A stretch of 30,338 bases of DNA from the IMG/VR virus record IMGVR_UViG_3300042294_002474, positions 1 to 30,338 of that record, one strand, 5' to 3'. This document shows, piece by piece, positions 865 to 29,709 of this stretch. The stretch is from a virus. The notes under the pieces were generated by a model that saw only the letters and a program-made list of their open reading frames with translations, had not been told where the DNA came from and searched no databases. Each line of letters starts with the position of its first letter. The stretch's first letter is position 1. The translations under genes were made by a program, and so were the position numbers.

Positions 865-912
865 TTATATAATATTGGTTAAATCAGATTCGGTTAGTTT
901 GATAATTTTCAT
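865..912 (-). CDS. 15-aa mini-ORF consisting only of the virion-tag leader
   Basis: The minus strand reads MKIIKLTESDLTNII then TAA. This is nearly the same as the first 15 residues of the next gene upstream (MKKIVKLTESDLIRI), with different codons. The ATG overlaps that gene's TAA stop as TAATG, giving translational coupling. A terminator follows 8 nt after the stop. It is either the decayed remnant of a duplicated tagged gene that kept only its leader, or a functional free leader peptide. No function can be assigned, and expression is unproven. Confidence 0.5.
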   Translation of the reverse strand: MKIIKLTESDLTNII

Positions 913-1247
913 TAGATCAATCCTTTTATTTCACTTTTTACTTTACCAAGTTCATTAAATTTAAATTCTTTACCAAATTTACTACCAACCTTTTTAACGG
1001 TTATTCCATCTTTTCGGAACATAACTTGTCCAACGTGTTTTCCATCACAATGAATTTCAAAATCGTTACCAACTTGTTTTACTTTACAATCGTGTGATTT
1101 AATAAAGTTTTTAATTGTTTCTTGAAATCTATCGAGTTTAACGTCAACATCCTTTTCCTTAACTCCTTTATCTGTTTTACCTTCTTGGATAACTCTTTGT
1201 ACGATTCTAATTAAATCGGATTCTGTAAGTTTTACAATCTTTTTCAT
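912..1247 (-). CDS. Tagged putative internal virion protein (111 aa)
   Basis: The N-terminus, MKKIVKLTESDLIRIVQRVIQE followed by Gly, is the clearest copy of a leader shared by several genes in this window. The IQE at residues 20-22 fits the (I/L/V)xE cleavage rule of T4-type prohead proteases. I infer that the leader targets the protein to the capsid and is removed, leaving a basic body of about 89 residues (pI looks high, many Lys). The body alternates short beta-like stretches (FEIHCDGKHVGQVMF, GITVKKVG); I do not recognise the fold. It begins a transcription unit, with an ATATTTAT octamer 4 nt before the ATG and a terminator just upstream. It is coupled to the mini-ORF downstream. Confidence 0.7.
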   Translation of the reverse strand: MKKIVKLTESDLIRIVQRVIQEGKTDKGVKEKDVDVKLDRFQETIKNFIKSHDCKVKQVGNDFEIHCDGKHVGQVMFRKDGITVKKVGSKFGKEFKFNELGKVKSEIKGLI

Positions 1248-7910: not shown

Positions 7911-8498
7911 TTAATCCCCATTAGTTAAAAAATTAATAATCTTTTCTTTAACGCCACATTGTTTAATACCTTCACTTGATTTTGGGGTTAAAACGAAATT
8001 ACTAATTGCCCAAGCATCTTTCCAAGGTTCACCATTCTTACCCATATTAAGATCGTCAACTGAAACCCAGTGTGTAACCTTAGGATGATCGTGTAGGTAT
8101 TGTTGAATCTCAACGGTTCGTGTTTGTTCTAACTCCCATTGTGGTGACCATATAAATAAATCACTATGAACAGTACAATTCTGAATGTTTGGAGTTAATG
8201 CGATTGGTCGTTTGATGATACCTTGACTTTCGTAGTAGTCACCAAGTTCTTCAAGTGTTGCGTGTAGTTTCCAATCTGAACTTACAACAATTTCACATCC
8301 TGTTTCTTCGATAATCTCATTCAATAACTTAATTGCCTTCTTATCGAAATCATCAAAACGATACTCAACAGGAGCTTCCTTTAAATTTGGTGATGAATCA
8401 GGATTCGCTGAACGATATTTCGCCCATTTTTTCTTTCGTCCACCCCAATTATTAGAGAGACAAATTACACCATCGTTATCTAAGAAGAGTACTTTCAT
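7911..8498 (-). CDS. HAD-family phosphatase of the RNA-repair (Swiss Army Knife) type
   Basis: The 195-residue protein has HAD motif I as DNDGV (Asp7, Asp9), motif II as VVSSDWK (Ser73, Ser74) and a late acidic motif VDDLNM (Asp148, Asp149). The downstream pattern (NEIIEETGCEIVVSSDW, WVSVDDLNMG) matches my memory of the HAD_SAK domain seen in phage and bacterial RNA-repair proteins. Such domains are predicted to remove terminal phosphates from RNA. The RNA-ligase, cREC and kinase genes elsewhere in this window support that role. Its ATG overlaps the stop of the 26-aa membrane peptide gene as ATGA. Cytoplasmic; substrate unproven. Confidence 0.8.
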   Translation of the reverse strand: MKVLFLDNDGVICLSNNWGGRKKKWAKYRSANPDSSPNLKEAPVEYRFDDFDKKAIKLLNEIIEETGCEIVVSSDWKLHATLEELGDYYESQGIIKRPIALTPNIQNCTVHSDLFIWSPQWELEQTRTVEIQQYLHDHPKVTHWVSVDDLNMGKNGEPWKDAWAISNFVLTPKSSEGIKQCGVKEKIINFLTNGD

Positions 8499-8691: not shown

Positions 8692-9687
8692 TTAGTTTCT
8701 TATAACTTTTTCAGTTGATCCGTCACTATATCGGATGATATGTAATTCACCTGATTCAGGTTTACATTCTCTACCTAACATATCTGTGATTTTAACGATT
8801 GTCTTCCCATATTGAGTTAACTCTTCAATTTCTGCAAATCCTATACTCTCAGTTTGATTGATAACAATAGTTTTATAATCCATTGATTTAGTATAACAAT
8901 ACACAACTAATTGGAAGTTATAACATCCTGTTGAGTCGATCATTGGGTAGTTCACCATATATGTTTGGTATGTACCTGTTGTATCAATAACATACCACAC
9001 ACATAAAATACTGTCTAAACCACTATTAATAAGACCATTTATTGTCATATATGCTGTGTCGATTGTGTTAAAATTTATATTACAATCTTCTATGGTTGTG
9101 GTGAAATTACCAATTGGACTATTACAAGTACCTGTTGAATTTAACACTAAAGTATCTCCGAAATTGGTTGATTGTGTTACGATTGAATCACATAATGTTG
9201 TATTACATCCGTTAGCATCCATTACATAACAACAATACCCCCCTACAGATAAATTATTGATCGTCTGAAGCATATTACCATTACTCCACTGATATGTGTA
9301 TGGTGCCGTTCCGTTAATAACATTTGCTGTCATTGATCCATCATTAATTGTAGAATCAATTGTTGTGATATATCCACCGAAGTTAAAACACGGATTGAAT
9401 GTACCTGATGTTATGTTGAACGTAAGTGTTGTTGGGGTATTATTAACAACGAATGAAACTGTGTAAGTTCCAGGACAAAGACTATCAACATAGTATCCTC
9501 CTGATTGGATCACCGCGCCAAATCCATTCCAATTAATCACCGATAAGTTAACACTCGTATCTAATACTGCAGTACCATCACAGATGTTAGGACCACTAGT
9601 AGGTGAGGTATAAACCATTGTTTGGGACATTACCCCAAAAGAAATAACACTAATAAGTGTCAGTAATAATAATTTTAATTTTTTCAT
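8692..9687 (-). CDS. Secreted SprB-repeat protein with T9SS-like C-terminus
   Basis: The 331-residue protein has a classic signal peptide (about residues 1-21, ending VMSQ). It contains at least one SprB-type repeat: NGTAPYTYQWSNG, then TINNLSVGGYCCYVMDANGC (about residues 123-160). SprB repeats are the hallmark of flavobacterial T9SS-exported surface adhesins. The C-terminus, KITDMLGREC...GELHIIRYSDGSTEKVIRN, resembles a degenerate type A sorting domain. Many Cys residues suggest disulfides in the extracytoplasmic space. It is transcribed from its own TATATTTG box after the TonB-receptor terminator. Inference: a surface protein sent out through the host T9SS. Such genes are rarely reported in phages. 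Confidence 0.75.
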   Translation of the reverse strand: MKKLKLLLLTLISVISFGVMSQTMVYTSPTSGPNICDGTAVLDTSVNLSVINWNGFGAVIQSGGYYVDSLCPGTYTVSFVVNNTPTTLTFNITSGTFNPCFNFGGYITTIDSTINDGSMTANVINGTAPYTYQWSNGNMLQTINNLSVGGYCCYVMDANGCNTTLCDSIVTQSTNFGDTLVLNSTGTCNSPIGNFTTTIEDCNINFNTIDTAYMTINGLINSGLDSILCVWYVIDTTGTYQTYMVNYPMIDSTGCYNFQLVVYCYTKSMDYKTIVINQTESIGFAEIEELTQYGKTIVKITDMLGRECKPESGELHIIRYSDGSTEKVIRN

Positions 9688-9713
9688 AAATTTGTTTTTT
9701 AGTTAACTATAAA

Positions 9714-9721
9714 CAAATATA
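9714..9721 (-). promoter_or_regulatory. Host-type -7 box TATATTTG before SprB-repeat gene
   Basis: Exact TAnnTTTG match 26 nt before the ATG at 9687. It lies between that ATG and the preceding terminator. No clear -33 TTG was seen. Confidence 0.5.
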
Positions 9722-9734
9722 AATAATATATCAA

Positions 9735-9759
9735 TAAAAAACCCTCCTTTTGGGAGGGT
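9735..9759 (-). terminator. Intrinsic terminator after TonB-receptor gene
   Basis: Stem ACCCTCC/GGAGGGT with a 5-nt loop and a T-run on the minus strand, 6 nt after the TonB-receptor stop codon. Confidence 0.9.
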
Positions 9760-9765
9760 AACTAA

Positions 9766-12327
9766 TTAAAACTTATATTTAACCGATAGTGAAACCGTTT
9801 GACCAAAAGTAATCTCTTGCCACCTATTATCTTCTGTGTCATATCTATGATTACCATTTAGGTCTTGGAAATATATAAGTTTTTGTGCTAATATATCTTT
9901 TAAGTTTAATTTTAATTCAACCTTTTTAAATGTTTTTGACAATTGGAAATCGATCACATTTCTTCCGTTTTCCCAAACGCTAGGTTCCTGTTGATTACCA
10001 ACAATATAGATTCTAGGTCCGATAACATTATAGGATAATGTAACATTAAAATCTTCTTTTTTGTTCGTGTAAAATAACCCTGAATTAATGATGTATGGTG
10101 ATTGTCCTTGTAGTGGTCTGTTACCACCAGCACCTATAACCTCATCCATATTTACCACTGACTTAATAATTGAAATATTACTATAGATTGTAAGTTGGTT
10201 CCATAATTTATGGTTTTCAACTTTAGATAAAAACCCTAATTTAAATCTGAATTCTAACTCACCACCAAAACTTTGTGATCTTTCAATGTTTGAGAAGTAT
10301 AACTCAGGTGCTCCTGACGTTCCGGTCCTATTTATAGTTTCAATAGGGTTATTAAAGTTTTTGTAAAACCCTGACAAACTTATAATCTGACCACTACCAG
10401 GGTAAATCTCATATCTAATATCACAATTAGTTATCTTAGTTCTTTTTAAATATGGATTACCTGATGTGATATTATCCAATACGAAGTTATAGAAGTTAAA
10501 TGGCGCTAATTCTCTAAACTCAGGTCTAGATACCGTTTGACTAATACTTCCTCTTAACTTCATTTTTTTATTGAAGTTATAAATTACATTAACAGAAGGT
10601 AATAAATCAATTACCGTTGTGTCAATGTTTCTATTTAAGTTACTCCCAAACTCAATGTAGTTAAAGTTTTGATTGTAAGATTCTAATCTAACTCCACCCG
10701 CAAATCTCCACTTGTTCAATTTGTAATCAACCATAGTGTAGAAAGAATTTAAGAATGAATTTGCATCATAACTATCATCAACTTTGGTTGCCTCATCTAA
10801 TTTAAAACCACCCTGACCATTACTTAAAAGACCCATATTCTCAGTGGAGAATATTTGATCCATAGGTAATAAAAGTAAGTCACTATTAAAGGTACTACCG
10901 TTTGGTTTATATTGTGAAAACCCAAAATTTCTTGATTGAAAGTCTTTCATTCTAAATTGATTCCACCCACCGATCTTGACTGAATTAACATCTTTAAATG
11001 GAATTGTTAGATCATATCTTGCACTTATAATTTTTTCATCTGATTCAGACCAAAACATATTACCAGCAGCAGTTGGTATTGTACCGTTCTGTTGAATAAC
11101 TGCAACATATTGTTCTGTTGGGTCATCCTCATTTAAAGAGTATTTTCTATACACTACTCTCCTTAGGTTCGGAATGTCTCTTTTAACATTACTATAACCA
11201 ACACTCCAATTAAATTTATTTTCTTTTATCGTGTGAATCCCAAGTAATTGATTAGTTAAAAAGTTATTTTGAGTATACCAAAAATTCGTAGATTTCTCCC
11301 ATTGTCTTGGATCACTATCTAACTCTCTAACACCCTTTCTAACATTAACCTTATCTTCAGAATTTACAGAATAAATATTCTTAAACTTGATGGTGTTGTT
11401 TTCATTAATCTTATAAACCAAATTTAACATACCACTATTTAAAACACTCTGAGTAAATACAGAATCATTTAGTTCCATTTTCTTAACCACACCCGTTGCT
11501 TGTTCCTCAAACTCTCTTCTAACAATATTATTATAGTTGAAGTTGTTTTGGTAGTTATACGTTAAAATGAAACTTAACGTTTGTTTCTTTTTAAATTTAA
11601 TGTTTCTACTTAAGGTATATTGAATAGATGGGTTAGGTAACGCGAGCCTATCTTTAGTTGACCAAGTAAAGTCCATTAGTTTTGCAACCTCAGACCTTTC
11701 TTGTTTTGATAAGTTTTGGAAATCAATAGTTCCATTAATATTTGGTAACCCTCTAGATTCAACACTATATGTTTTAAAATCCCTAAATGTTGCAATTGTA
11801 TTATGTGATCCACCAATCTGTATTGTATGAGTATTCTCATTTTTAGGTTCGGAAGTGTTAATATCAATTACGCCTCCAGCAAACTCACCAGGTAAATCAG
11901 GACTAGCAGTCTTCATCACCATTAGATTGTCAATCATATTTGATGGGAATATATCAAACGAAAAAGATCGCTTATCGGATTCCGAACTTGGTAAAGGTAG
12001 CCCGTTCAATAATGCGAAGTTGTATCTATCATTAAGACCCCTCACAACCACGAACTTATTATCCACAACACTTATCCCACTAACACGTTTAAAAACATCA
12101 GAGACCTTAGAGTCTGGTGTTCTCTTAAAGGTCTCTGCGTTAATTCCGTCTACAGATGTAATACTATTTCTTTGTAGTTTTACAAGTTCTGTTGTTGATT
12201 CTTTATTAATTTTAAAGGTAACCGTAACCCCCTCAACATTTCTAATTGTATCTTTTTTAAATGTCTCAGATGGTTGAGCCAATAATTGTATTGGTAGTAC
12301 CAATAATAACGTCAATAAAAATTTCAT
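9766..12327 (-). CDS. TonB-dependent outer-membrane receptor
   Basis: The 853-residue protein has a signal peptide (about 1-17, cut after LLAQ), a plug domain (about 45-165) and a 22-strand-type barrel ending in Phe (VSLSVKYKF). Plug landmarks are SVDGINAETFKRTPDSKVSD, ISVVDNKFVVVRGLNDRYN and GEFAGGVIDINT. TonB receptors import scarce ligands across the outer membrane using ExbBD/TonB energy. Bacteroidota relatives usually carry an N-terminal CarboxypepD_reg-like domain, which is absent here: the plug starts about 30 residues after the signal peptide. No SusD partner is adjacent. The start is 5 nt after the stop of the T9SS cargo gene, so the two are co-transcribed. Ligand unknown. In a phage it could feed the infected cell or replace the receptor surface. 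Confidence 0.9.
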   Translation of the reverse strand: MKFLLTLLLVLPIQLLAQPSETFKKDTIRNVEGVTVTFKINKESTTELVKLQRNSITSVDGINAETFKRTPDSKVSDVFKRVSGISVVDNKFVVVRGLNDRYNFALLNGLPLPSSESDKRSFSFDIFPSNMIDNLMVMKTASPDLPGEFAGGVIDINTSEPKNENTHTIQIGGSHNTIATFRDFKTYSVESRGLPNINGTIDFQNLSKQERSEVAKLMDFTWSTKDRLALPNPSIQYTLSRNIKFKKKQTLSFILTYNYQNNFNYNNIVRREFEEQATGVVKKMELNDSVFTQSVLNSGMLNLVYKINENNTIKFKNIYSVNSEDKVNVRKGVRELDSDPRQWEKSTNFWYTQNNFLTNQLLGIHTIKENKFNWSVGYSNVKRDIPNLRRVVYRKYSLNEDDPTEQYVAVIQQNGTIPTAAGNMFWSESDEKIISARYDLTIPFKDVNSVKIGGWNQFRMKDFQSRNFGFSQYKPNGSTFNSDLLLLPMDQIFSTENMGLLSNGQGGFKLDEATKVDDSYDANSFLNSFYTMVDYKLNKWRFAGGVRLESYNQNFNYIEFGSNLNRNIDTTVIDLLPSVNVIYNFNKKMKLRGSISQTVSRPEFRELAPFNFYNFVLDNITSGNPYLKRTKITNCDIRYEIYPGSGQIISLSGFYKNFNNPIETINRTGTSGAPELYFSNIERSQSFGGELEFRFKLGFLSKVENHKLWNQLTIYSNISIIKSVVNMDEVIGAGGNRPLQGQSPYIINSGLFYTNKKEDFNVTLSYNVIGPRIYIVGNQQEPSVWENGRNVIDFQLSKTFKKVELKLNLKDILAQKLIYFQDLNGNHRYDTEDNRWQEITFGQTVSLSVKYKF

Positions 12328-12332
12328 TCCTA

Positions 12333-13895
12333 TTATTTTTTAACTATAACTTTTTCTGTATGACCTTCAGCGTTGATAATATAAATACCATTTTCCAAAT
12401 CTGATAAGTCCGTATTGTTTTGTTTTACAACTTTACCCAATGAATTGTAGATTACAAAATTTAAAGATTTTTTATCAGAATCAATACTGATTAAACCTTC
12501 TGTTGGGTTAGGAAATACTTTAAACGATGTTTTGATTGTTTCAGTAATACTATTAGTTAAATCACCAAATTTAGAATTTGTAAAGTCAGCACCTGTTGCA
12601 ACAACTGATGTGCTATCTAATCTACAATCAGGTACAACACCACTTGGTACAAATATGTTTACCCAATTGATTTGATTGATTGTTGTTAACGTATCGTTAT
12701 TGTGACTCGAAAAGTATGTTGTTAAAATTCCTGGTGTTGTAACTAAACAATTTGTTGGTATTTCACAAAGAACATTACTTTCGAAAGCCAATGTGTCCCC
12801 TAACAAATTATCCTCAACTGATGTACCTTCTAATGATAATCCCTTTTCCCATCCAACAACAAGAGTATTGAACACTGATGTTGCGGAGTTTCTTCTAATT
12901 CTAAAAGCTTTCTCAAACTTCTCACCTGTTGGTAGAGTAACCGTACCATTACCTTTCGCACCTACAATAGTGAAATTAGAGAATATCGGAGCGGTTTGTG
13001 GTAAAGACGAACTACCTTGTGCGTCATTATCTGATTCGAAACAATTTGAGTCACCTGCGGCGTCTGATAAATTTTCATTTCTAATTGATAACCCAAACTG
13101 AACGTTACCTCTGTATCCAAAATCAGTGTCGAAATCATCGTCTGTTGTTGAATAAGCTATTAAATGTTTACAATTAACCGTTCCTCCAAACCATTCAAAA
13201 GCATCGTCACCTGAATAACTTACCTGAATAAAATCAACTTGAGTTCCCGAACCAACTGATCCAAAAGTAATACCATTTATTTCTTTATTTGGTGCTAATG
13301 GTATTCCCGCGAATTCAATTCTAATATATTTTAATATTCCTGAATTATCATTATCGTTATTACCACCAAATTCGGTATCAGATGTTGGAGCAATACCCTC
13401 AATGTTTGCAACACCACCAGGTTGGTTATTAACACCGTTACCTAAAAGTACAACTCCACCCCAATCACCTTCAGATCTATTTCCAATAGAATTGTTTGAT
13501 GTAAAAACAATTGGTAATTGTTGTGTTCCTTCAGCGATTAATTTAGAACCTCTTGTTATAATCAAAGTCCCTTGTGTTGCATTATCACCTCTGATGATTG
13601 TTCCTGGTTGAATCGTTAGTGTTGATCCGTTTTTAACATAAATTTTGTTTTCTAACAAGATAACACCTGACCAAATTGTATTTGTTGTGATGTCCGAACT
13701 AACGGTTGTTTGTGTCGATGGGTAATTTGTATTTTCGGGATTAAAATTAGACCACCCATAAGTCCAATCTGTTTGTGGTGTATTGTCCGTCACAGGAAAA
13801 GCTCCCTTATAATTGGTAACGGTCCAAAACTGACTTTGTGCGCTTGTTAAGAAAACAAACATTAACATTACGATACTTGCGTAAATCTTTTTCAT
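12333..13895 (-). CDS. T9SS type A sorting-domain secreted protein (beta-helix-like)
   Basis: The 520-residue protein has a signal peptide (about 1-20, ending LTSAQS). The body (about 60-400) is a beta-helix-like series rich in Asn, Gly and Asp: ILLENKIYVKNGSTLTIQPGTIIRG, GVVLLGNGVNN, GDDAFEWFGGTVNCKHLIAY. It ends with a T9SS type A sorting domain (about 450-520): FKVFPNPTEGLISI, LNFVIYNSLGKVV, LENGIYIINAEG and a basic tail. T9SS cargo is exported through the outer membrane and usually attached to the surface or released. In Bacteroidota, proteins of this type often sit next to a TonB receptor like the one downstream; I recall that pairing without a specific reference. It is the first gene of the module, and a structured leader precedes it. 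Confidence 0.85.
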   Translation of the reverse strand: MKKIYASIVMLMFVFLTSAQSQFWTVTNYKGAFPVTDNTPQTDWTYGWSNFNPENTNYPSTQTTVSSDITTNTIWSGVILLENKIYVKNGSTLTIQPGTIIRGDNATQGTLIITRGSKLIAEGTQQLPIVFTSNNSIGNRSEGDWGGVVLLGNGVNNQPGGVANIEGIAPTSDTEFGGNNDNDNSGILKYIRIEFAGIPLAPNKEINGITFGSVGSGTQVDFIQVSYSGDDAFEWFGGTVNCKHLIAYSTTDDDFDTDFGYRGNVQFGLSIRNENLSDAAGDSNCFESDNDAQGSSSLPQTAPIFSNFTIVGAKGNGTVTLPTGEKFEKAFRIRRNSATSVFNTLVVGWEKGLSLEGTSVEDNLLGDTLAFESNVLCEIPTNCLVTTPGILTTYFSSHNNDTLTTINQINWVNIFVPSGVVPDCRLDSTSVVATGADFTNSKFGDLTNSITETIKTSFKVFPNPTEGLISIDSDKKSLNFVIYNSLGKVVKQNNTDLSDLENGIYIINAEGHTEKVIVKK

Positions 13896-16675: not shown

Positions 16676-16707
16676 GTGACCCCATCAAGTTAATGGGAGT
16701 CACCTAC
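16676..16707 (-). terminator. Intrinsic terminator overlapping the RNA-ligase stop
   Basis: Stem GTGACcCCAT/ATGGGaGTCAC-type pairing (GTGAC/GTCAC outer, CCCAT/ATGGG inner), followed by seven Ts on the minus strand. It spans the TAA stop of the RNA-ligase gene at 16690. Confidence 0.85.
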
Positions 16708-17811
16708 GTTATTTTTTTCACCATAGATCAAATAATCCGGATTAATAATCTTAGCAATTTTGTGTCTACTACCATCCAAAGATTTAACAACAACACCTTC
16801 GTGAGGAACTTTAGTTCCGTGAATGTTGTTATTGAACACGTATTTATCTTGTTCTTCTTTTGACCAAAGTCCTGAATACAATGTTTCAACTTCTTCCAAC
16901 CCCATACATTTGAAGTGAGTTGATTGATAAATGTTATCCTCATATACACCGTCAACCTCAACATCAAATCCGGCAAAACGAATATCAGTCAAACCATAGT
17001 CGTAATTCTTTTGTATTCCGTGTCCGTAGATCTCACCATAGATGATAAAACCAGACCCTATACCATCAGGTAAATATGTGTCTTTAACGTGATCCCAAAG
17101 TTTTTTACGAATATTGTATTTTTCCTCAATCGTTTTCCACACATCACTATTGTAGAACCCTTGAGAGTCAGATCCTTTCTCTACGTTATGTGATCCGTAC
17201 ACATATTCATAACCAACCCATTGATTACCAAACCATCCACGGATTTTATCCAAGAATGAAAGTTTTTTCTTTTTTACAATCCCGTAACGAGCATTTGTCC
17301 CGTGTAATTTACGAGTGATCACAACGTCATCGTCCTCGTTAAACATATCAGGCACGTTCTTCATATTTGGGAATTTGTAGTAAACGTGGAAGTTAGGGTT
17401 TTGGTGGTACTTGAATTTTCTACCCCCAACACTCATCTCAACCATCTTAACTGGTGGTTCGTACTTAAAGATTTCCAACAACTCCATACAATCAGATCCT
17501 TCGTAACGCCATTTTTCAGGAATAAATGAAATTGGGATAATTAAACATTCCGAATAAACACCTCTCAACTTAACAGTACGAACACGACCACCTTTACGCA
17601 AGTAATTGGTTACGTTCATTGCATCTGATAATTTAACAGGGATAACTGCATCCGTAGTTGCTACAACTACCGAATCACCCGTTTTATATTCGCCTTTTTT
17701 GATGATAGCATTCCATCCACCGATAACACCTAATTCTATGTTGTCTGCTCCTTCTATTGGTTTAACCTCTCCGATTACACCAACATAACATACGCTATTA
17801 TTATTTTCCAT
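16690..17811 (-). CDS. RNA ligase, Rnl5/DRB0094-type
   Basis: The 373-residue protein has an N-terminal OB-like domain (about 1-120) and a C-terminal nucleotidyltransferase domain. Motif I is KLHGT with the predicted AMP-accepting Lys168; FIIYGEIYG is motif III-like (about 260-268); EGVVVKS is motif IV (about 340-346); and a Lys-containing motif V (KIAKIINP) follows. An N-terminal OB domain ahead of the ligase core is the layout of DraRnl (Rnl5), which seals 3'-OH/5'-PO4 nicks with a ribonucleotide at the 3'-OH side, usually on a template strand. Adjacent genes carry a cREC domain, so repair of RNA damaged by host nucleases is a good inference. Confidence 0.9.
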   Translation of the reverse strand: MENNNSVCYVGVIGEVKPIEGADNIELGVIGGWNAIIKKGEYKTGDSVVVATTDAVIPVKLSDAMNVTNYLRKGGRVRTVKLRGVYSECLIIPISFIPEKWRYEGSDCMELLEIFKYEPPVKMVEMSVGGRKFKYHQNPNFHVYYKFPNMKNVPDMFNEDDDVVITRKLHGTNARYGIVKKKKLSFLDKIRGWFGNQWVGYEYVYGSHNVEKGSDSQGFYNSDVWKTIEEKYNIRKKLWDHVKDTYLPDGIGSGFIIYGEIYGHGIQKNYDYGLTDIRFAGFDVEVDGVYEDNIYQSTHFKCMGLEEVETLYSGLWSKEEQDKYVFNNNIHGTKVPHEGVVVKSLDGSRHKIAKIINPDYLIYGEKNNVGDSH

Positions 17812-17813
17812 TT

Positions 17814-18074
17814 TTATACGTTTTTAAATTCTTCTTTCACTAACTCTATTTCTTCTTCCAACCTTCTGAGTTCTCTAGCAATCATTTCTTTAATAACCTC
17901 TTTGTTATAGAAACTCACCTCACTTGGTGTTCGAAAATGTCCTCCCGATGTATAGTTAATTGTTACGTTCAAACCACAACTTTTAAGTGCGGTTTCTAGT
18001 TTGTATTTTTGTCTTTCCAACTTTTCAAGGTTTTCTTTAACTTTTTTTGCCTGTTCAAATTTTTCTAATTCCAT
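17814..18074 (-). CDS. Small coiled-coil protein (86 aa)
   Basis: Two charged helices, the first about residues 1-32 (LEKFEQAKKVKENLEKLERQKYKLET) and the second about 58-86 (EVIKEMIARELRRLEEEIELVKEEF), flank a short beta hairpin (NVTINYTSGGHFRTP). This is the shape of a dimerisation or adapter protein. It sits 2 nt before the RNA-ligase start and 9 nt after the cREC gene, so it is in the same operon and may be an accessory to either. Confidence 0.65.
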   Translation of the reverse strand: MELEKFEQAKKVKENLEKLERQKYKLETALKSCGLNVTINYTSGGHFRTPSEVSFYNKEVIKEMIARELRRLEEEIELVKEEFKNV

Positions 18075-18083
18075 ATCTTAATT

Positions 18084-18506
18084 TTATACGGTATGTTCAA
18101 TTTGTACTCTTACACAATTTTGTGGCATTCTATTTAAGTGTCGATAATTGTTGATGTATCCCATCATATTACCACTTCCAACAGCGTTTGCCGAATGAAC
18201 CACAACCTCAACTACAGGTTTACCGTCTAGCCATTGATTAACCAACCACTTTGTACAGTCCATACCAGTTTTTTCTGTAATATTATCATAATTGATTGTA
18301 TAATTTTTCACAACACCATAGTGCCATTCTGCCATCGCACTATCACCTAAGTCGTGATCCAATGATATTAATTCAATGTTCTCCATTCCGATTGAGTTTA
18401 CCTTTTGAACGAACTCATCATAAGAACGTACAACGATCCAACTTGGATCTACCGGTGTACGAACATCATCTAGGTAAATGCGATAACCTTTTAAATTTTC
18501 TCCCAT
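18084..18506 (-). CDS. Cyclic-phosphate-processing receiver (cREC) domain protein
   Basis: The 140-residue protein has YLDDVRTP (about residues 11-18), ISLDHDLG (about 47-54) and VVVHSANAVGSGNM (about 106-119), the cREC signature. This receiver-like fold is predicted from comparative genomics to process 2',3'-cyclic phosphates at RNA ends. Asp13/14 and Asp50/His51/Asp52 are plausible active-site residues. The gene lies two genes upstream of an Rnl5-type ligase, an arrangement that suits RNA repair. An alternative is a receiver-like scaffold without catalysis. Confidence 0.85.
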   Translation of the reverse strand: MGENLKGYRIYLDDVRTPVDPSWIVVRSYDEFVQKVNSIGMENIELISLDHDLGDSAMAEWHYGVVKNYTINYDNITEKTGMDCTKWLVNQWLDGKPVVEVVVHSANAVGSGNMMGYINNYRHLNRMPQNCVRVQIEHTV

Positions 18507-18532
18507 ATTAAATTTTTATAATTTTTTAATTG

Positions 18533-18895
18533 TTATTCAACATCATATAAACCATCTTTTTGATCTTCCTCCATCATTTTCACCAAAAGAGCTTTCCTAC
18601 TATACTTTCTTATTAATTTGAATGTCTCACCGATATCTGTGAAATTGGATGGTGGGGAATCGTTTCTCACAGGAAGAAATATTAATGTAAACCCGTGATT
18701 ACCTGCCAACTTTTCTTTTACTCTGATACCACATATTTCATCGATATAAACCCAAGGGTAATTCCCGACAAGTTTAACTTCAATTCCAATTTTTTTCAAT
18801 CTTTCTACAAATACTTTGATCTTATCGCCAGTCAATTTTGTGGGATCATTTTCTCTTTCCATATAGGTTCCAAATTTTGTTTCTATTTTTTTCAT
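18533..18895 (-). CDS. Conserved hypothetical phage protein (120 aa)
   Basis: Alpha/beta protein with GIEVKLVGNYPWVYIDEICGIRV (about residues 36-58), GFTLIFLPV (about 68-76) and FKLIRKYSRKALL (about 92-104). The PWVYIDxxCG and GFTIxF blocks resemble a recurring phage family of unknown function. Its ATG overlaps the previous gene's stop by 4 nt. It may act in the RNA-repair operon by position only. Confidence 0.65.
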   Translation of the reverse strand: MKKIETKFGTYMERENDPTKLTGDKIKVFVERLKKIGIEVKLVGNYPWVYIDEICGIRVKEKLAGNHGFTLIFLPVRNDSPPSNFTDIGETFKLIRKYSRKALLVKMMEEDQKDGLYDVE

Positions 18896-19113
18896 CTTAA
18901 TACGTATGAATGAATTACTATTACCAATTCACCATTAACTATTGACCTATCCTTTTGAATATCGATGTGAGTCATACCGAAATCCTCCTTTAATCGGTTT
19001 GATTGGATTTCAACCTCGTGTTCTGCATCTTCTATGTTTTCAAAAAACCCAAAATAGGAGTCACAATCCCCTGTCTTATCACACACTCCGTAAATTATCT
19101 CTCTTTGACCCAT
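18892..19113 (-). CDS. Small paralogous protein, copy B (73 aa)
   Basis: Paralogue of the 81-aa protein at 16133-16378: IIYGVCDKTGDCDSYFGFFENIEDAEHEVE matches LIYGVYDRTRGVGGCDDYFGYF-type order, and both end with an IIH/VIH..(V/I)LR tail. It overlaps the upstream Cys-rich gene by 35 nt, more than usual, but there is no other in-frame ATG for the conserved N-terminus. Function unknown. Confidence 0.65.
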   Translation of the reverse strand: MGQREIIYGVCDKTGDCDSYFGFFENIEDAEHEVEIQSNRLKEDFGMTHIDIQKDRSIVNGELVIVIHSYVLR

Positions 19114-19270
19114 AACATTCTAATTTTTTATCTGTAACATTCCACAAATCTTTTTTACCGTCAGTCATATGGCAATTGTGTTTCTTACCGGTTTTTTCAG
19201 CAAAATTAACAATCATATCGTTATGATGATTTTTAATAAAGTGTGGACATTCTTTGCAAGGTTTTTTCAT
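19079..19270 (-). CDS. Cys-rich small zinc-binding protein (DUF6283-like)
   Basis: The 63-residue protein begins KPCKECPHF (CxxC at residues 5-8) and has later Cys33 and Cys52 with several His, enough for one zinc. It resembles small DUF6283-type proteins of phages and bacteria; function not known. It heads the RNA-repair operon, with the cleanest promoter in the window just before it: TTTTG, 20 nt, TATCTTTG, then 4 nt to the ATG. Confidence 0.65.
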   Translation of the reverse strand: MKKPCKECPHFIKNHHNDMIVNFAEKTGKKHNCHMTDGKKDLWNVTDKKLECYGSKRDNLRSV

Positions 19271-19274
19271 AATA

Positions 19275-19307
19275 CAAAGATATGAAAACTATTTTAATAA
19301 AACAAAA
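19275..19307 (-). promoter_or_regulatory. Promoter TTTTG-N20-TATCTTTG for the RNA-repair operon
   Basis: TTTTG at 19303-19307 and TATCTTTG at 19275-19282, 20 nt apart, fit the Bacteroidota -33/-7 layout. The ATG at 19270 begins 4 nt later, implying a nearly leaderless mRNA. Confidence 0.7.
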
Positions 19308-19673
19308 TTATTTTTTAATCGGAGAAGTTCCAACAATTTCAATGGATACCGGAGCAATCCCTCTTTTAATGAAGTCCAATTGTTTTGCGGTGCCGTAAGA
19401 TAAATCGATTATGTGTTTGGATGACTTTGGTAATCTATCATTAATTTTAACAAACCTAACCGAATCATTGAGGAGATTGGTAACTTTCACTAAGGTTCCA
19501 AACTTAAGAGTTTTATGAGCCCCAAATAAACTATCCTTATGAAACTTTTCTCCCGACGCGGTTAACCTTCCTGTGTAGTTTTGACCGTAGTAAGAAGCGG
19601 TACCTTTGCGTACGTCATTAGGTGTTGTGAACGATAAAGTTATAAGTAATATGGGTATCAAAAATTTTCTCAT
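19308..19673 (-). CDS. RlpA-like double-psi beta-barrel secreted protein
   Basis: The protein (121 aa) has a signal peptide (about residues 1-18) and a double-psi beta-barrel domain with RKGTASYYG (about 22-30), TGRLTASGEKF (about 34-44), GAHKTLKFGTLVKVTN (about 51-66) and a later VKINDRLP...HIIDLS (about 75-92). RlpA is a lytic transglycosylase acting on naked glycan strands in the cell wall. The SPOR domain that usually follows is absent, so this is a short form. It could soften the peptidoglycan during lysis or entry, or be a non-catalytic DPBB protein. A TACTTTTA box ends 4 nt before its ATG. Confidence 0.8.
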   Translation of the reverse strand: MRKFLIPILLITLSFTTPNDVRKGTASYYGQNYTGRLTASGEKFHKDSLFGAHKTLKFGTLVKVTNLLNDSVRFVKINDRLPKSSKHIIDLSYGTAKQLDFIKRGIAPVSIEIVGTSPIKK

Positions 19674-19717
19674 AGTGTAAAAGTATGAAAAAATTGTCGA
19701 TAAATAAAGGTTTTAGG

Positions 19718-20956
19718 TTATCTCTTAAACTTAAACTCAGTTTCTAATTTTGACTTACCGTGTTTTTTATCCATAAGTTTTTGATGTAATTCCCAATTAA
19801 TTATAGATTCACTAACAGGTTGATCATCTTTAGCCATTGCATAAAGTTTACCTATTTTCTTCAACATTTTTGTTGCAATATAATTGAAGTTTTCAATTTC
19901 ATCTTTGAAAAATTGTGTTGTATTACCTTTGTATTTTGAAATGTGGTTTGCAAACTTGTTTTTCAATTTGTCCATCTTTTTTTCTTCTTCATCGTCAACT
20001 AATGATGACCCCATTAAACCCCTAAATAACGATCTAAGTTCGTCTCTAGAATTACTAGTCATATCAATAAATGTTGACATTTTAGTATTAACTAAATTAA
20101 TATACACTATTTCCAAAATTCTACGGATTTTTTGTTCCTCAGTAAGTTCAGACGGGTCCTCATCTATGTGAATAAGAACTTTATCCACCTTATCCATATC
20201 GTTACGTAAACCTTCAATAAGTTTCTCAAAAGTGAAATTCTTAATTTCAAGTAATTCTCTATACACCCTGTTATTACTTAGAAAGTCTTTAAACTGTGAT
20301 TTTGTAATATTATCAGATTTAAGTTGTGATGCAACTTCAGTTGTTCTAACTAAATTTTCCGCAATAGTTGTATAATACAAATACCTCATAAAAGTACCGT
20401 CAATTATTGGAATACCAAAGCTACCGTAATTATGGGTTGCTCTGTATTCAGCGTCTCTACCAATCAAATCAAGTTCTTTTGACTGTTTGTCATATTTGTG
20501 TTTTAATTCGTGAGCGATTGATCCCAAATGTTCTGATCTGTCCTCAACATACACATCGTAAAGATCACTAGGTTCCCAATTTTCACCAACACCATATGTA
20601 ATTTCAATTTCCGCGGTCTCTGATTTCTGAATTCTTTTCATCATTACTTTTCTATCAAAATGAAAAGATTGACCCATACCCATAGATATAATAACAGGTT
20701 TACCTTTTATTTGTTTTGGGTATTCCTCAATATTAACAACAAGTTCAAAATCTTCGATATTTATTTTCTTTTTATCACCTAATTCAATATCAACCTCATT
20801 AGAAAATTCATATTTTTCGTCCTTAGTTGTGATACTTTTTAGATCTTGTCCGATTAAATCGTATATCTTTTCTGCAGCATCTAAAATAGAATCAGGAACC
20901 CCCAAGGCTTCCGTTATAAGTCGTAATTGATTTTCGGTAATGATAATGTTTTTCAT
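19718..20956 (-). CDS. Tagged predicted virion zinc metalloprotease
   Basis: The first 18 residues, MKNIIITENQLRLITEAL, match the leader of other tagged genes, with a possible cleavage after ITE. The body contains GSIAHELKHKYD, an HExxH zinc motif (about residues 148-152). Further on, GRDAEYRATHNYG supplies a candidate third ligand Glu about 19 residues later. This is the arrangement of small zinc metalloproteases. The long C-terminal part is helical (LKNKFANHISKYKG...NYIATKMLKKIGKLYAMA) and unrecognised. Inference: a protease packaged in the head and delivered with DNA, possibly against host proteins. An ATATTTAT box is 4 nt upstream. A purely structural role cannot be excluded. Confidence 0.75.
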   Translation of the reverse strand: MKNIIITENQLRLITEALGVPDSILDAAEKIYDLIGQDLKSITTKDEKYEFSNEVDIELGDKKKINIEDFELVVNIEEYPKQIKGKPVIISMGMGQSFHFDRKVMMKRIQKSETAEIEITYGVGENWEPSDLYDVYVEDRSEHLGSIAHELKHKYDKQSKELDLIGRDAEYRATHNYGSFGIPIIDGTFMRYLYYTTIAENLVRTTEVASQLKSDNITKSQFKDFLSNNRVYRELLEIKNFTFEKLIEGLRNDMDKVDKVLIHIDEDPSELTEEQKIRRILEIVYINLVNTKMSTFIDMTSNSRDELRSLFRGLMGSSLVDDEEEKKMDKLKNKFANHISKYKGNTTQFFKDEIENFNYIATKMLKKIGKLYAMAKDDQPVSESIINWELHQKLMDKKHGKSKLETEFKFKR

Positions 20957-20960
20957 ACTA

Positions 20961-20968
20961 ATAAATAT
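20961..20968 (-). promoter_or_regulatory. ATATTTAT motif before tagged metalloprotease gene
   Basis: Minus-strand ATATTTAT ends 4 nt before the ATG at 20956. It directly abuts the 13-bp hairpin at 20969-21000. Confidence 0.5.
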
Positions 20969-21000
20969 ATTGGAGTTGTAGTTTATCCTACAACCCCAAT
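20969..21000 (-). other. 13-bp hairpin at the end of the phosphoesterase gene
   Basis: On minus-strand RNA, AUUGGGGUUGUAG pairs with CUACAACUCCAAU (one G-U pair, 6-nt loop). It spans the stop of the phosphoesterase gene and is followed by AT-rich DNA rather than a pure T-run, so it may be a terminator or a 5' structure for the next gene. Confidence 0.55.
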
Positions 21001-21639
21001 GATATCATCTAGGTGGTGATCATTCTCTATTTCAGACACTATAGTTCTTTTGTCCATCATATGAACAATCTCAGTAAGACTATATGGTTGGAGGTTATTT
21101 CCGTCCACCCCAACATCTAATCTTTTACCGTTACCCCATTTTCTACTTGCCGGTAAGTGTACGTGTCCGTGAAGGTGAATAACACCTTTATTTAAACCAT
21201 TCCAACTCGCAAATGGATAGTGAGTCATCACAAAATTTGCACCATTTATACTTACCTGAAGGTAGTCACTAACAGATAAGAACATATCTTTTATGTTCTC
21301 TCTGTTATTTCTAATGTGGTGATCGTGATTTCCCAATACTAAGTGGATATTTTTACATATCAATCGGTCCAAGAATATTTTAATAAATTCAAACCCACCA
21401 AATGCAATATCACCTAACATTATTAATGTATCATCCTGACCTACATTGGAGTTAATGTTGTCAACTAACGTGTTGTTCATCTGATCCAGAGTGTTGAAGT
21501 CTCTCGTACTATCCACAGGAACTTTCCCGTCCGTCGTTCTCCATTCCGTCACACCTCTACAGATATTTTTATGGTTATAGTGGGGATCTGATGTAATCCA
21601 TACTCTACCTGTTGTTAATATTTTATCAAATTTCATCAT
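20983..21639 (-). CDS. Calcineurin-like metallophosphoesterase
   Basis: The 218-residue protein has the metal-binding motifs of the family: SDPHYNH (Asp18, His20), LGDIAFGG (Asp77), LGNHDH (Asn104, His105), VMTHYPF and LHGHVH near the C-terminus. The fold hydrolyses phosphomono- or diesters using two metals. The substrate is unknown; small phage enzymes of this type act on nucleotides or nucleic acid ends. Its start overlaps the kinase stop as ATGA, so the two form an operon and could act together on RNA or DNA ends. Cytoplasmic. Confidence 0.85.
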   Translation of the reverse strand: MMKFDKILTTGRVWITSDPHYNHKNICRGVTEWRTTDGKVPVDSTRDFNTLDQMNNTLVDNINSNVGQDDTLIMLGDIAFGGFEFIKIFLDRLICKNIHLVLGNHDHHIRNNRENIKDMFLSVSDYLQVSINGANFVMTHYPFASWNGLNKGVIHLHGHVHLPASRKWGNGKRLDVGVDGNNLQPYSLTEIVHMMDKRTIVSEIENDHHLDDIIGVVG

Positions 21640-22034
21640 ATCTTAATTTCAAAACGATCTCTCATTTTAGTTAATACTTCTTCAGGAACATCGTGTTGAT
21701 TAATTCCTCCGTGTCTGTTTTCAACGACTATTGAGAATACTTTATACCCGTATGTCTTCGCTAATTCAAAATAAGGTTCCATCTCCCACTCTTGTGTAAA
21801 TGTGTTAGAAACTACAACAGGAGAATGTTCCAATCTCATTAAGAAATCCATTTCTTCTTGACACCATTGATGAGCATCCTTTATTTTTGATGGTTCAAAA
21901 TTGTAATTACCATCACTATCAACAAAAAACATATCCGCCTCTTTATGACAATAATCTTTCTTCACTAATGATTTTGCAAATGTTGATTTACCTGAACCAG
22001 GAATTCCACGAACGATGTATAATATTTTTTCCAT
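21636..22034 (-). CDS. P-loop kinase, polynucleotide-kinase-like
   Basis: The protein (132 aa from the ATG at 22034) has a P-loop GIPGSGKST (about residues 10-18) and a later segment FFVDSDGNYNFEPSKIKDAHQWCQEEM (about 36-62). Phage and bacterial kinases of this small size often phosphorylate RNA 5'-OH ends or nucleosides. The phosphatase partner domain of T4 Pnkp is absent, but the phosphoesterase and HAD genes could supply that activity. The open frame continues upstream to 22079, but a TATCTTTG box ends 4 nt before the ATG at 22034, which I take as the start. Confidence 0.75.
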   Translation of the reverse strand: MEKILYIVRGIPGSGKSTFAKSLVKKDYCHKEADMFFVDSDGNYNFEPSKIKDAHQWCQEEMDFLMRLEHSPVVVSNTFTQEWEMEPYFELAKTYGYKVFSIVVENRHGGINQHDVPEEVLTKMRDRFEIKI

Positions 22035-22038
22035 AGGA

Positions 22039-22046
22039 CAAAGATA
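22039..22046 (-). promoter_or_regulatory. Host-type -7 box TATCTTTG before kinase gene
   Basis: Exact TAnnTTTG match, 4 nt before the ATG at 22034 and downstream of the terminator at 22063-22088. No clear -33 TTG was seen. Confidence 0.55.
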
Positions 22047-22062
22047 ATAAAAAAAATTGCAT

Positions 22063-22088
22063 AAAAAAAGGGAGATCACTCTCCCTTT
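22063..22088 (-). terminator. Intrinsic terminator after the tagged peptidoglycan-binding gene
   Basis: Nine-bp stem AAAGGGAGA/TCTCCCTTT with a TCAC loop and a T-run on the minus strand. Confidence 0.9.
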
Positions 22089-22348: not shown

Positions 22349-23284
22349 TTAGTTAGCCCAATTTTTAATATTGTCTTGAGATATTTTTGTATCAACTTTT
22401 TGATCTTGAGTGGCTCTCCAATCATCCGCAAATTGTTCTTCATCTTGTGATCCACCACCACCAACAACTGAACAACCTTTAGATTTTAACGCTTTTAATG
22501 CCTCTTGGTAGTCAAATCCATATCTATCACCTCTTCCACCTCCTCCACCAGGAATAACAGGTGGGTTTGTATTGTCAACAGGTGGTTTTGTACCATCAGA
22601 TGTCTTTTTATTACATTTCCATCCGGATTTTTTCCATGCCTCAACACTACTAAAACCACATTTTTTAGCTTTATCTAAGTAAAAATTTTTATTTGCCTTT
22701 TTAGTGTTACTTATAAGGGTAGTGATTGGTAACCAAACGTGACTTCTCCAATCGTCATCACCATCAATGTCACCGTCTAAAGCGTCATATAATGTTTCTC
22801 CACGTCTCCTATAATATAATGAAGCCATCTTACATAAATCAGGTATTGTCAATAATTTATTTAAATTTCTTTCTATCCCTTCAAGATTTGTATTTCCAAG
22901 TCCAGCAACCGCAGAATATATATTATCAGCAATGTCCGTTAATGCCCCGTCAGAATTTTTTGTTTTCCCCAAATTACCTTTTTGAGTTCTACATTTTTTT
23001 AGAACTCCAAGTACGTTATCCGCAGCACCTCCACCAGTTGTGAACCAACCAGCAACACCACCAACAACGGTACCTACTACAGCACCAATAGCCGTTCCAA
23101 CAACAGGAACAATACTACCTACCGCAGCACCTGTTGCGGCTCCAGCTCCCGCACCAGCAGCAACTCTACCAATATCTTGGCCGGTATCTTCACTTATATT
23201 TTCTCTTTCTTCTTGAATTTTTTTCTTATGTAGAGTAAGAATACGTTTAGATTCTTCCTCCGTTAATACAAATTTCTTCTCCAT
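22349..23284 (-). CDS. Tagged glycine-zipper virion protein (311 aa)
   Basis: The leader is MEKKFVLTEEESKRILTLHK with KIQE at residues 21-24 as a cleavage candidate. Residues about 40-85 are a long Gly/Ala/Val run (GAGAGAATGAAVGSIVPVVG, GTVVGGVAGWF), a glycine zipper like those of membrane-inserting toxins and phage ejection proteins. A soluble Lys/Cys-rich region with KKCRTQKG, KKCGFSSVEAWKKSGWKC and a Gly-rich tail (GGGGGRGDRYGF) follows. Inference: a head-delivered protein that helps DNA or effector entry across the membrane. Its promoter motif ATATTTAT is 19 nt upstream, after a terminator. Confidence 0.7.
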   Translation of the reverse strand: MEKKFVLTEEESKRILTLHKKKIQEERENISEDTGQDIGRVAAGAGAGAATGAAVGSIVPVVGTAIGAVVGTVVGGVAGWFTTGGGAADNVLGVLKKCRTQKGNLGKTKNSDGALTDIADNIYSAVAGLGNTNLEGIERNLNKLLTIPDLCKMASLYYRRRGETLYDALDGDIDGDDDWRSHVWLPITTLISNTKKANKNFYLDKAKKCGFSSVEAWKKSGWKCNKKTSDGTKPPVDNTNPPVIPGGGGGRGDRYGFDYQEALKALKSKGCSVVGGGGSQDEEQFADDWRATQDQKVDTKISQDNIKNWAN

Positions 23285-26357: not shown

Positions 26358-27503
26358 TTAATTATTTTTTTCAGTTGTAAGTTCGTGATCGTCATCATTT
26401 TGATATTCACTTAATAATTCGTCATTAGACATAGTTCCATATTTCTCACTAAGACCATTCATATCAACATTATTGTTCATTATAGATTTCATCTCGTAAA
26501 TTTGTTCCGCTAAACTAAGTGATGTAACGATCTCTTGGATGATTTTATATGGGTCGGCGTTTGATCCTGGTCTACGATCTTCAACATATCCCCTCCATTC
26601 CTTTGCGGTATCTTGGGGAACTCTAATTGACGCTCCACGATCAGATACCCCCCAACTGAATTTGTCAATTGACTGAGTTTCAAAATTACCCGTTAAACGT
26701 AACTCATTATCAGACCCATACGCCTTGATGTGATCATTATGTCTTGTTTCAAAAGCCCCAAATAATGACATAAAATATTTTTCATTACTTTCGTTTCTCA
26801 TCATATCAGTTGAGAAATTTGTATGTAATCCAGATCCATTCCATTCACCAGATCTTAATGGTTTTGGGTGTATGGTAATCTCATACCCGTATTTTTCCGA
26901 AATCTTTTCCAAAAAATATCTACTCATCCATAGATCATCCCCACCTTTTAACTTACCTTTTGATAGGACCTGATATTCCCATTGACCTAACGCCACTTCA
27001 GCATTTGTGCCAGTAATGTCGATACCATATTCTAAACACATATTGGTATGTTCTTCAACAAAGTCACGACCAACTACGTTTGATCCAACACCACAATAGT
27101 ATTTACCTTGTCCTTCTAGGGATCTTCTGTCGTGACCCAAAATTGGCCCATTAGGTTCTTTCATAATGAAGTATTCTTGTTCAAAACCAAACCATAAATC
27201 AGAAAATTGATTTCCAATTTTTGATCTCTCATTTGTTTTATGTGGTGTACCATCAGGATTTAAAACCTCACATAGAACATATATGGTGGAAATTTCTTCC
27301 GGTACATACCATCTAACTGGTTTTAATAGACAATCTGAATTATCAGTTTCTGCCTGATTTGTTGACGATCCATCGAAGTTCCACATTGGGAGGTTTTCTA
27401 TTGATCCTGTTATAGTATCCTCATCAACAATCTTAACCTTACTTCTAAGGTTTGGTTCTGGGTTATATCCATCAACCCATACATATTCTAACTTAATTTT
27501 CAT
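26358..27503 (-). CDS. Glutamine synthetase, type II
   Basis: The 381-residue protein matches GSII enzymes of eukaryotes and Bacteroidota: beta-grasp N-terminal domain (NFDGSSTNQAETDNSDCLL, about residues 42-60), catalytic residues in WFGFEQEY (Glu108, Glu110), NAEVALGQWEYQ (Glu169), WNGSGLHTNF (His227), SDRGASIRVP and VEDRRPGSNADPY (about 307-319). It makes glutamine from glutamate, ammonium and ATP. A C-terminal tail of about 40 residues (ending DHELTTEKNN) exceeds the typical core and may be phage-specific. It is an unusual metabolic gene for a phage and may supply nitrogen for nucleotide and protein synthesis. It shares its operon with DUF3310 and a small gene. Confidence 0.9.
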   Translation of the reverse strand: MKIKLEYVWVDGYNPEPNLRSKVKIVDEDTITGSIENLPMWNFDGSSTNQAETDNSDCLLKPVRWYVPEEISTIYVLCEVLNPDGTPHKTNERSKIGNQFSDLWFGFEQEYFIMKEPNGPILGHDRRSLEGQGKYYCGVGSNVVGRDFVEEHTNMCLEYGIDITGTNAEVALGQWEYQVLSKGKLKGGDDLWMSRYFLEKISEKYGYEITIHPKPLRSGEWNGSGLHTNFSTDMMRNESNEKYFMSLFGAFETRHNDHIKAYGSDNELRLTGNFETQSIDKFSWGVSDRGASIRVPQDTAKEWRGYVEDRRPGSNADPYKIIQEIVTSLSLAEQIYEMKSIMNNNVDMNGLSEKYGTMSNDELLSEYQNDDDHELTTEKNN

Positions 27504-28494: not shown

Positions 28495-29709
28495 CTAATC
28501 TGTTGGTATCACATAATACCAAGTACCATTTATTCTGTCTTCATAAATATCACTTCCATTATTTGATAGTATTCCATAACCATCGGAACTAACTATTGTG
28601 TTAGTAAGTTCACTAATGTCAATAAAATCCATAATAAATTTTTTATCAAACCCATAATCATCAATAAATGATTTAATATCGTCCGCATAATCATCAACCC
28701 TACTATTAATCTCCTGAACTATCTGATCTTCATCGTAGTCACCTTCAGGGTCTTCCATAATATTGTTAATTGTGTTCTGAAGTCCTTCAATCTTTTTTTG
28801 AATTGTTTTATTTTCTTCGTCGGTTAAACCCCCACTAATAAATTTATTATTTAATTTCTTAATGGTATTTTCCAACGTACTTACCTGAGATTTTTGATAA
28901 TCCGATAAAGCTAAACCTATATCGTAAGTTCCACCCGGGCTAGATCTTATATCGTCCTCATAGAATTCATATAACCATCTACGCCAATGTTGGACATCAA
29001 TTGCGTCATTCCATACCCATTCTCTAAAAGCATCATATCCAACGTCATCAACCAAATTTTCAATATATGCTTCTGCAGCCTTATCCATTTCATCCTGAGT
29101 ATAAACGTCGTATGTGTTTGGAACTAGCGCCGATCCTCCTACCCATTCATATTTTTTTCCGTAACCATAACTACCCACCCCATCAGGGTAAATAAAGTAT
29201 TTGTCTTCAGTAACTTCATTTCCTTCTTCATCTTCAACTTCCTCAGGAATTCCCTCTTCAATTAAAAAGTTGTATAACGCCTCCGTTCTTTCCGCATCAT
29301 CATCACCACCAGTTGCAATATTCCATTCGTTGTCAGATCTTAACTCTTCTAACTCATCAAGTTTTTTTGCCAATTCTTGTTGTTTTATTATACTCCACAT
29401 TGTGGATCCATAATTGTTAACATAACCATCAACCTCAATTCCGTTAATATTTGGGACGTTTGAATCACTTATGTCCAATCTACCCATTACTCTAACAATA
29501 CCTGTTAATTGTCCGATTTTTTTATTATTACTAACATCTAAAGGTCCAGTAATAACAATCCCTTTACCTCTATACGGTTTTAGTTTTGCAACTCTATCGG
29601 CAACACCACCAACATCCTCTAACACTTCTTTATATTGTTCGGGGGTGAGTTGAATAAGATTTTCATCTTGTTCTATAATAAAGTTCTTTATGAATTTTTT
29701 AATTGACAT
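28495..29709 (-). CDS. Tagged probable internal virion protein (404 aa)
   Basis: The start, MSIKKFIKNFIIEQ, is a short variant of the tag and resembles the T4 internal-protein leader MKTYQEFIAEA more than the longer versions here; IIE is the cleavage candidate. A second LTPEQYKEVLE block follows at about residues 21-31. Residues about 45-100 form a repeated beta-like region (GIVITGPLDVSNNKKIGQLTG, GIVRVMGRLDISDSNVPNINGI), like a polymer-forming or solenoid domain. The remainder is acidic and helical and includes EWNIATGGDD and RRWLYEFYEDD. Inference: packaged scaffold-like protein. ATATTTAT ends 5 nt before the ATG. Confidence 0.65.
   Translation of the reverse strand: MSIKKFIKNFIIEQDENLIQLTPEQYKEVLEDVGGVADRVAKLKPYRGKGIVITGPLDVSNNKKIGQLTGIVRVMGRLDISDSNVPNINGIEVDGYVNNYGSTMWSIIKQQELAKKLDELEELRSDNEWNIATGGDDDAERTEALYNFLIEEGIPEEVEDEEGNEVTEDKYFIYPDGVGSYGYGKKYEWVGGSALVPNTYDVYTQDEMDKAAEAYIENLVDDVGYDAFREWVWNDAIDVQHWRRWLYEFYEDDIRSSPGGTYDIGLALSDYQKSQVSTLENTIKKLNNKFISGGLTDEENKTIQKKIEGLQNTINNIMEDPEGDYDEDQIVQEINSRVDDYADDIKSFIDDYGFDKKFIMDFIDISELTNTIVSSDGYGILSNNGSDIYEDRINGTWYYVIPTD

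Follow-up and report, generated by a model that had tools for sequence, protein, structure and literature searches.

The metallopeptidase gene and its surroundings

The window analyzed in this study is the whole stretch of 30,338 nucleotides of the IMG/VR virus record IMGVR_UViG_3300042294_002474. Its minus strand carries a gene whose product the first-pass annotation had proposed to be a tagged metalloprotease that may be injected into the host. The description of a zincin-type metallopeptidase with a tag like a capsid-targeting sequence is well supported by the analysis reported here, but the residue named as third zinc ligand was wrong. The gene, its upstream element and its direct neighbours are arranged as follows.

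19718..20956, minus strand: tagged HExxH metallopeptidase, 412 aa (ORF list, alignment)
20961..20967, minus strand: late-type element TATTTAT, starting 11 nt upstream of the protease start codon (ATG)
19308..19673, minus strand: RlpA-like DPBB protein, neighbour (PF03330, 2.8e-16)
20983..21639, minus strand: metallophosphoesterase, neighbour, without TATTTAT (PF00149, phrog_547)

The RlpA-like protein (PF03330) and the phosphoesterase (PF00149) had both been named as neighbours from the letters of the sequence, and both were confirmed. An RNA-repair set surrounds the protease gene (window positions 16690-22079 and 7911-8498); the metallophosphoesterase listed above belongs to it, together with the following.

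16690-17811: RNA ligase
18084-18506: cyclic-phosphate-processing receiver domain
21636-22079: P-loop kinase
7911-8498: HAD of the Swiss-army-knife RNA repair type

A glutamine synthetase gene at 26358-27503 is conserved in several relatives. The viral fragment also holds, at 8692-13895, genes for a SprB-repeat protein (8692-9687), a TonB-dependent receptor (9766-12327) and a protein with a secretion-system C-terminal sorting domain (12333-13895). No counterpart of these genes was found among the neighbour genes of 30 relatives, and they are either cargo or an assembly artefact.

The metallopeptidase belongs to a large family in uncultured phages. A first scan of IMG/VR found relatives at 62 loci, and a scan using C-terminal patterns only returned 244 matching stretches. 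Several members lie in contigs of 257-292 kb, with a single copy per record, and the phages that carry the gene are T4-related giant phages, probably of Bacteroidota. The window protein had no tblastn match in the phage collection, the host-genome scan found no relatives, and the protein could not be assigned to any family of Pfam, NCBIfam, PADLOC or PHROGs; weak matches to DDT, SinI and the like were at chance level and were rejected. The median dN/dS of 56 close pairs within the family was 0.13, which indicates that the ORF encodes a real protein under purifying selection. The body of the protease diverges faster than almost all neighbour genes (median identity of 54.6% versus 62-91%) and the active site is fixed. 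Such a pattern would fit an enzyme that has to keep up with a changing host, but does not prove it. One subclade has a C-terminal addition of about 170 residues without a family match (L018:7240-7743, also in L020 and L029).

Fold and predicted zinc site

Within the protein, the following regions were assigned from the alignment and from AlphaFold2 models.

20189..20908, minus strand: catalytic domain, residues 17-256, with a helix, a six-stranded sheet, the HExxH helix and downstream helices (AlphaFold2 domain model)
20498..20512, minus strand: HELKH, residues 149-153, with predicted zinc ligands H149 and H153 and general base E150
20357..20359, minus strand: E200, likely third zinc ligand
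19811..20188, minus strand: C-terminal helical region, residues 257-382 (AlphaFold2 model)
19757..19810, minus strand: C-terminal ESIINWELHQKLMDKKHG segment, with a related stretch forming the N-terminus of other small phage proteins

The HExxH zinc site originally read from the string SIAHELKHKYD holds up, as HE[IL]KH was found in all 63 aligned members, about 30 of which were obtained through C-terminal patterns alone. Because the members with HEIKH came from that C-terminal-only scan, which did not use the motif, this invariance is no search artefact. Residue 151 is Leu or Ile across the alignment, and H149, E150, K152, H153, Y155, D156, Y171, Y194, E200, R204 and E207 are invariant. The third ligand had been placed in GRDAEYRATHNYG, but the candidate there, E170, is Glu in just 28 of the 63 members and was rejected. 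Three remote homologues, from a 294-kb viral contig and from 635-kb and 636-kb uncultured phage records, all keep E200 and R204 and all have Gln in place of E207, which makes E207 less likely as a ligand. Since Glu is kept at position 200 where E207 has become Gln, and is invariant in the family, the alignment points to E200 as the likely third ligand. The homologues from the 294-kb and 635-kb phages keep HExxH as well. The copy in the 636-kb record (L275, LR756504) has lost both histidines (YELTK) and is possibly a dead enzyme.

AlphaFold2 modelled the whole protein with a pLDDT of 84.0 and the domain of residues 18-256 with a pLDDT of 86.7 and a pTM of 0.76. The body is modelled with confidence, whereas confidence is low for residues 1-16, where a helix starts at residue 8. 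The HExxH motif sits on a helix of residues 140-158, and E200 is carried by the helices downstream of it. Foldseek searches of the PDB with the whole and domain models gave no match at E <= 0.001, only helical or unrelated matches, and for this reason the protein is termed zincin-like and not a proven zincin. Against viral models, three unnamed phage proteins were found at E < 0.001. The best sequence-profile match was to peptidase M13 (E 0.03). Similarity to M76 and M13 covers only some 20-30 residues around HExxHxxD (E 0.015-0.05), with Pfam scores below the cut-offs (15.5 versus 25.2 bits for M76, 14.4 versus 24.5 for M13), and the rest of the protein is unrelated to these families.

The C-terminal SIINWELHQKL segment of the protease is found again at the N-terminal end of small proteins that are unrelated to it (L173:4998-5066 and L174:4489-4590). 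It was considered as a second targeting signal but is too rare to judge.

The N-terminal tag and the upstream element

The tag of the protease and the other tagged proteins of the window are listed below.

20909..20956, minus strand: N-terminal tag, residues 1-16 MKNIIITENQLRLITE, putative capsid-targeting propeptide with predicted gp21 cut at E16|A17
22349..23284, minus strand: tagged glycine-zipper protein, TATTTAT upstream
912..1247, minus strand: tagged protein MKKIVKLTESDLIRIVQRVIQE, TATTTAT at -11
28495..29709, minus strand: protein beginning MSIKKFIKNFIIE, a tag variant ending in IxE, TATTTAT at -12

The tag that had been described as a virion tag is real and occurs far above chance. 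Its core is N-terminal in 118 of 1918 ORFs where 7.3 would be expected (all loci, protease family included), and it heads many otherwise unrelated proteins. In a 291-kb relative, 26 ORFs have the core in their first 12 residues, compared to about 1 expected from its internal frequency. The triplet [IL]xE follows the core in 35 of the 47 distinct tagged proteins, versus 14.7 in shuffles (maximum of 23 in 500 shuffles). Among members of the protease family the tag ends in [IL]xE in 61/61 and is followed by Ala at P1' in 59/61, while the part before the junction varies in length and sequence (MKNIIITENQLRLITE, MKTFILTEKQFDKLSKKLISE and MREIIKNVLSE are examples). That [IL]xE is invariant while the preceding tag varies points to cutting by a prohead protease. 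The remote homologues have the junctions INE|ALGVP and LNE|KLGVP.

The cleavage motif of T4 gp21 has the form [IL]xE. T4 gp21 and the corresponding proteases of giant phages all cut after Glu (PMC5694885). Genes for a gp21-type protease (PF03420) and gp23 (PF07068) were found in 6 of 10 records, five of which are of 257-292 kb, whereas the 30-kb window itself shows neither. In 80 of 80 loci, LINE precedes the predicted cut of gp23 (LINE|A). The tag is likened to the T4 capsid-targeting sequence (CTS) by functional analogy, and no homology is claimed. No clear tags were found in Flavobacterium phage immuto, one of the closest cultured phages as judged by gp23 (40% identity), and a literature search for the tag string LTESDL returned no paper.

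Tagged proteins elsewhere include a 526-aa protein (L157:1094-2671, G001 20091-21671) with a sub-threshold match to DHH phosphoesterases (E 0.001), possibly a packaged nuclease or nucleotide-signal hydrolase, and a phage lysozyme with a C-terminal LysM domain (L169:10852-11772, G001 257849-258772). Additionally, a protein encoded next to gp23 (G001 150229-150948) starts with MIERTIKNILKE|A and has TATTTAT at -11; this is another tag type and resembles the short tag of homologue L059.

TATTTAT lies 11-13 nt upstream (-11 or -13) of the protease gene in 57 of 62 family members. It is the most strand-biased 7-mer in the upstream regions of the 291-kb relative, where 90 of 282 genes have it in the 50 nt upstream, versus 28 when the antisense strand of these regions is counted. 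The genes for the tail tube, the tail sheath, a 2919-aa tail fibre and gp21 have it upstream, and it precedes 16 of 25 tagged genes compared to 74 of 257 untagged ones (Fisher p = 0.0006). Within the window it is absent upstream of the genes for the phosphoesterase, the kinase, the RNA ligase, the receiver-domain protein, the methyltransferase and glutamine synthetase. Because the element is common to virion genes and not to the flanking RNA-repair genes, the protease is probably expressed together with the virion genes though it is located among RNA-repair genes. However, gp23 itself is mostly without the element (present within 100 nt upstream in 1 of 75) and may be read from upstream, and for that reason TATTTAT is treated here as a putative late promoter.

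A candidate head-delivered protease

The model proposed here, by analogy, is that the protease works like a T4 internal protein with a zincin as its cargo. It would be synthesized late in infection as a free-standing zinc metallopeptidase with the site H149-E150-x-x-H153 and E200 as third ligand. Its amphipathic N-terminal peptide, like the T4 CTS, would draw it into the prohead core, where the gp21-type protease of the phage, cutting after [IL]xE, would cleave it at E16|A17. The mature enzyme would then stay in the head, enter the next host with the DNA and cut at least one host protein, probably a target in defence or takeover. The evidence leans slightly in favor of this course of late synthesis, tag-driven prohead loading, gp21 trimming, injection and cutting of host proteins. 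Zinc binding, proteolysis, packaging, injection and the substrate of the protease are steps that we infer, as is action on host or defence proteins; the case for packaging and injection would rest on the gp21-type junction, the T4-type head genes and the shared late-type element.

In T4, gp21 trims N-terminal peptides off IPI-III and Alt, foreign proteins fused to a CTS end up in the head, and the injected IPI blocks a restriction enzyme (PMC9958956, PMC3012670). The zincin-like protein is read as injected cargo because T4 core proteins with such peptides are packed and trimmed and IPI is injected, an argument by analogy. As with IPI-III and Alt, the short N-terminal peptide ends at a gp21-type site, and, as in T4, gp21 and gp23 are encoded in the same phage, diverse cargo stands behind the tag and expression appears to be of late type. 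Unlike the T4 internal proteins, the cargo here is a metallopeptidase, the tag sequence is different, and about 25 ORFs in one genome match the tag, a few of them by chance.

Zincins packaged in phage heads have been proposed before. Zincin-like MPTase domains occur in polyvalent proteins (P1 DdrB, N4 virion RNA polymerase, ArdC) that are inferred to be packaged in the head, and in one phage clade of them an Asp is reported at the third position after HExxH (PMC5512222). That Asp is invariant here (D156). However, the protein matched none of the curated MPTase models, and no second Pfam domain was found in it, so that it lacks the multidomain architecture by which polyvalent-protein MPTases are recognized; it is free-standing, with a single catalytic domain behind a T4-style propeptide. 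Jumbo phages also encode SprT-like, ArdC-like and group-1 zincins, which are proposed to cut host or virion proteins (PMC7824862). The family described here resembles them in being a zincin-like protein of jumbo phages, but they were not matched by sequence in searches with the metallopeptidase, and the available part of that report does not mention a capsid-targeting tag. What is new is a free-standing zincin-like protease on a T4-style tag, in a family without a solved-structure match.

The main rival explanation is that the protein is a second head-maturation protease, drawn into the prohead by its tag and acting there on scaffold or internal proteins with no need for injection. The tag would indeed place it in the prohead, the late-type element is common to the protease, head and tail genes, and an uncharacterized zincin of group 1 jumbo phages has been proposed to act in maturation (PMC7824862). 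However, the same phages already encode gp21, the protease evolves faster than its neighbours, and in record G001 more than 100 kb separate the head genes from its gene, which adjoins RNA-repair genes. Moreover, the 294-kb relative with a 75% identical gp23 has merely a very remote version of the protease, and this explanation is therefore considered unlikely.

It is also rather improbable that the late, tagged protease stays in the producing cell, serving lysis or late takeover, with the tag as some other localization signal. Not all tagged proteins are obviously cargo, since one is the lysozyme-LysM protein, which could be a lysis protein, and an RlpA-like gene stands next door. Against this, the RlpA gene is missing beside several homologues, and the invariant [IL]xE junction behind a variable tag, a site that gp23 shares, argues for cutting by the prohead protease. 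The loss of both histidines in the 636-kb phage homologue, which keeps E200 and R204, would fit re-use of the zincin-like fold as a non-catalytic packaged protein, but HExxH and E200 are kept throughout the window's own family (63 of 63 members), and this explanation is very improbable.

The preferred reading, a tagged and injected protease, can be extended to the whole tagged set, namely the protease, the DHH phosphoesterase, the lysozyme-LysM protein and the glycine-zipper proteins. All of these would be loaded into the head by an exchangeable, gp21-cleavable peptide, and the injected zincin would destroy a defence or takeover target of the host within minutes of entry. This extension is put forward only tentatively, as a possibility. 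The tag rule (an amphipathic N-terminus, an [IL]xE junction and TATTTAT upstream) would predict head-carried proteins of uncultured giant phages, and with it dozens of genes without a name become candidate injected effectors that can be tested. If the model is true, the protein described here would be a rare free-standing protease delivered by the phage head, and its substrate should reveal a host process that is blocked in the first moments of infection.
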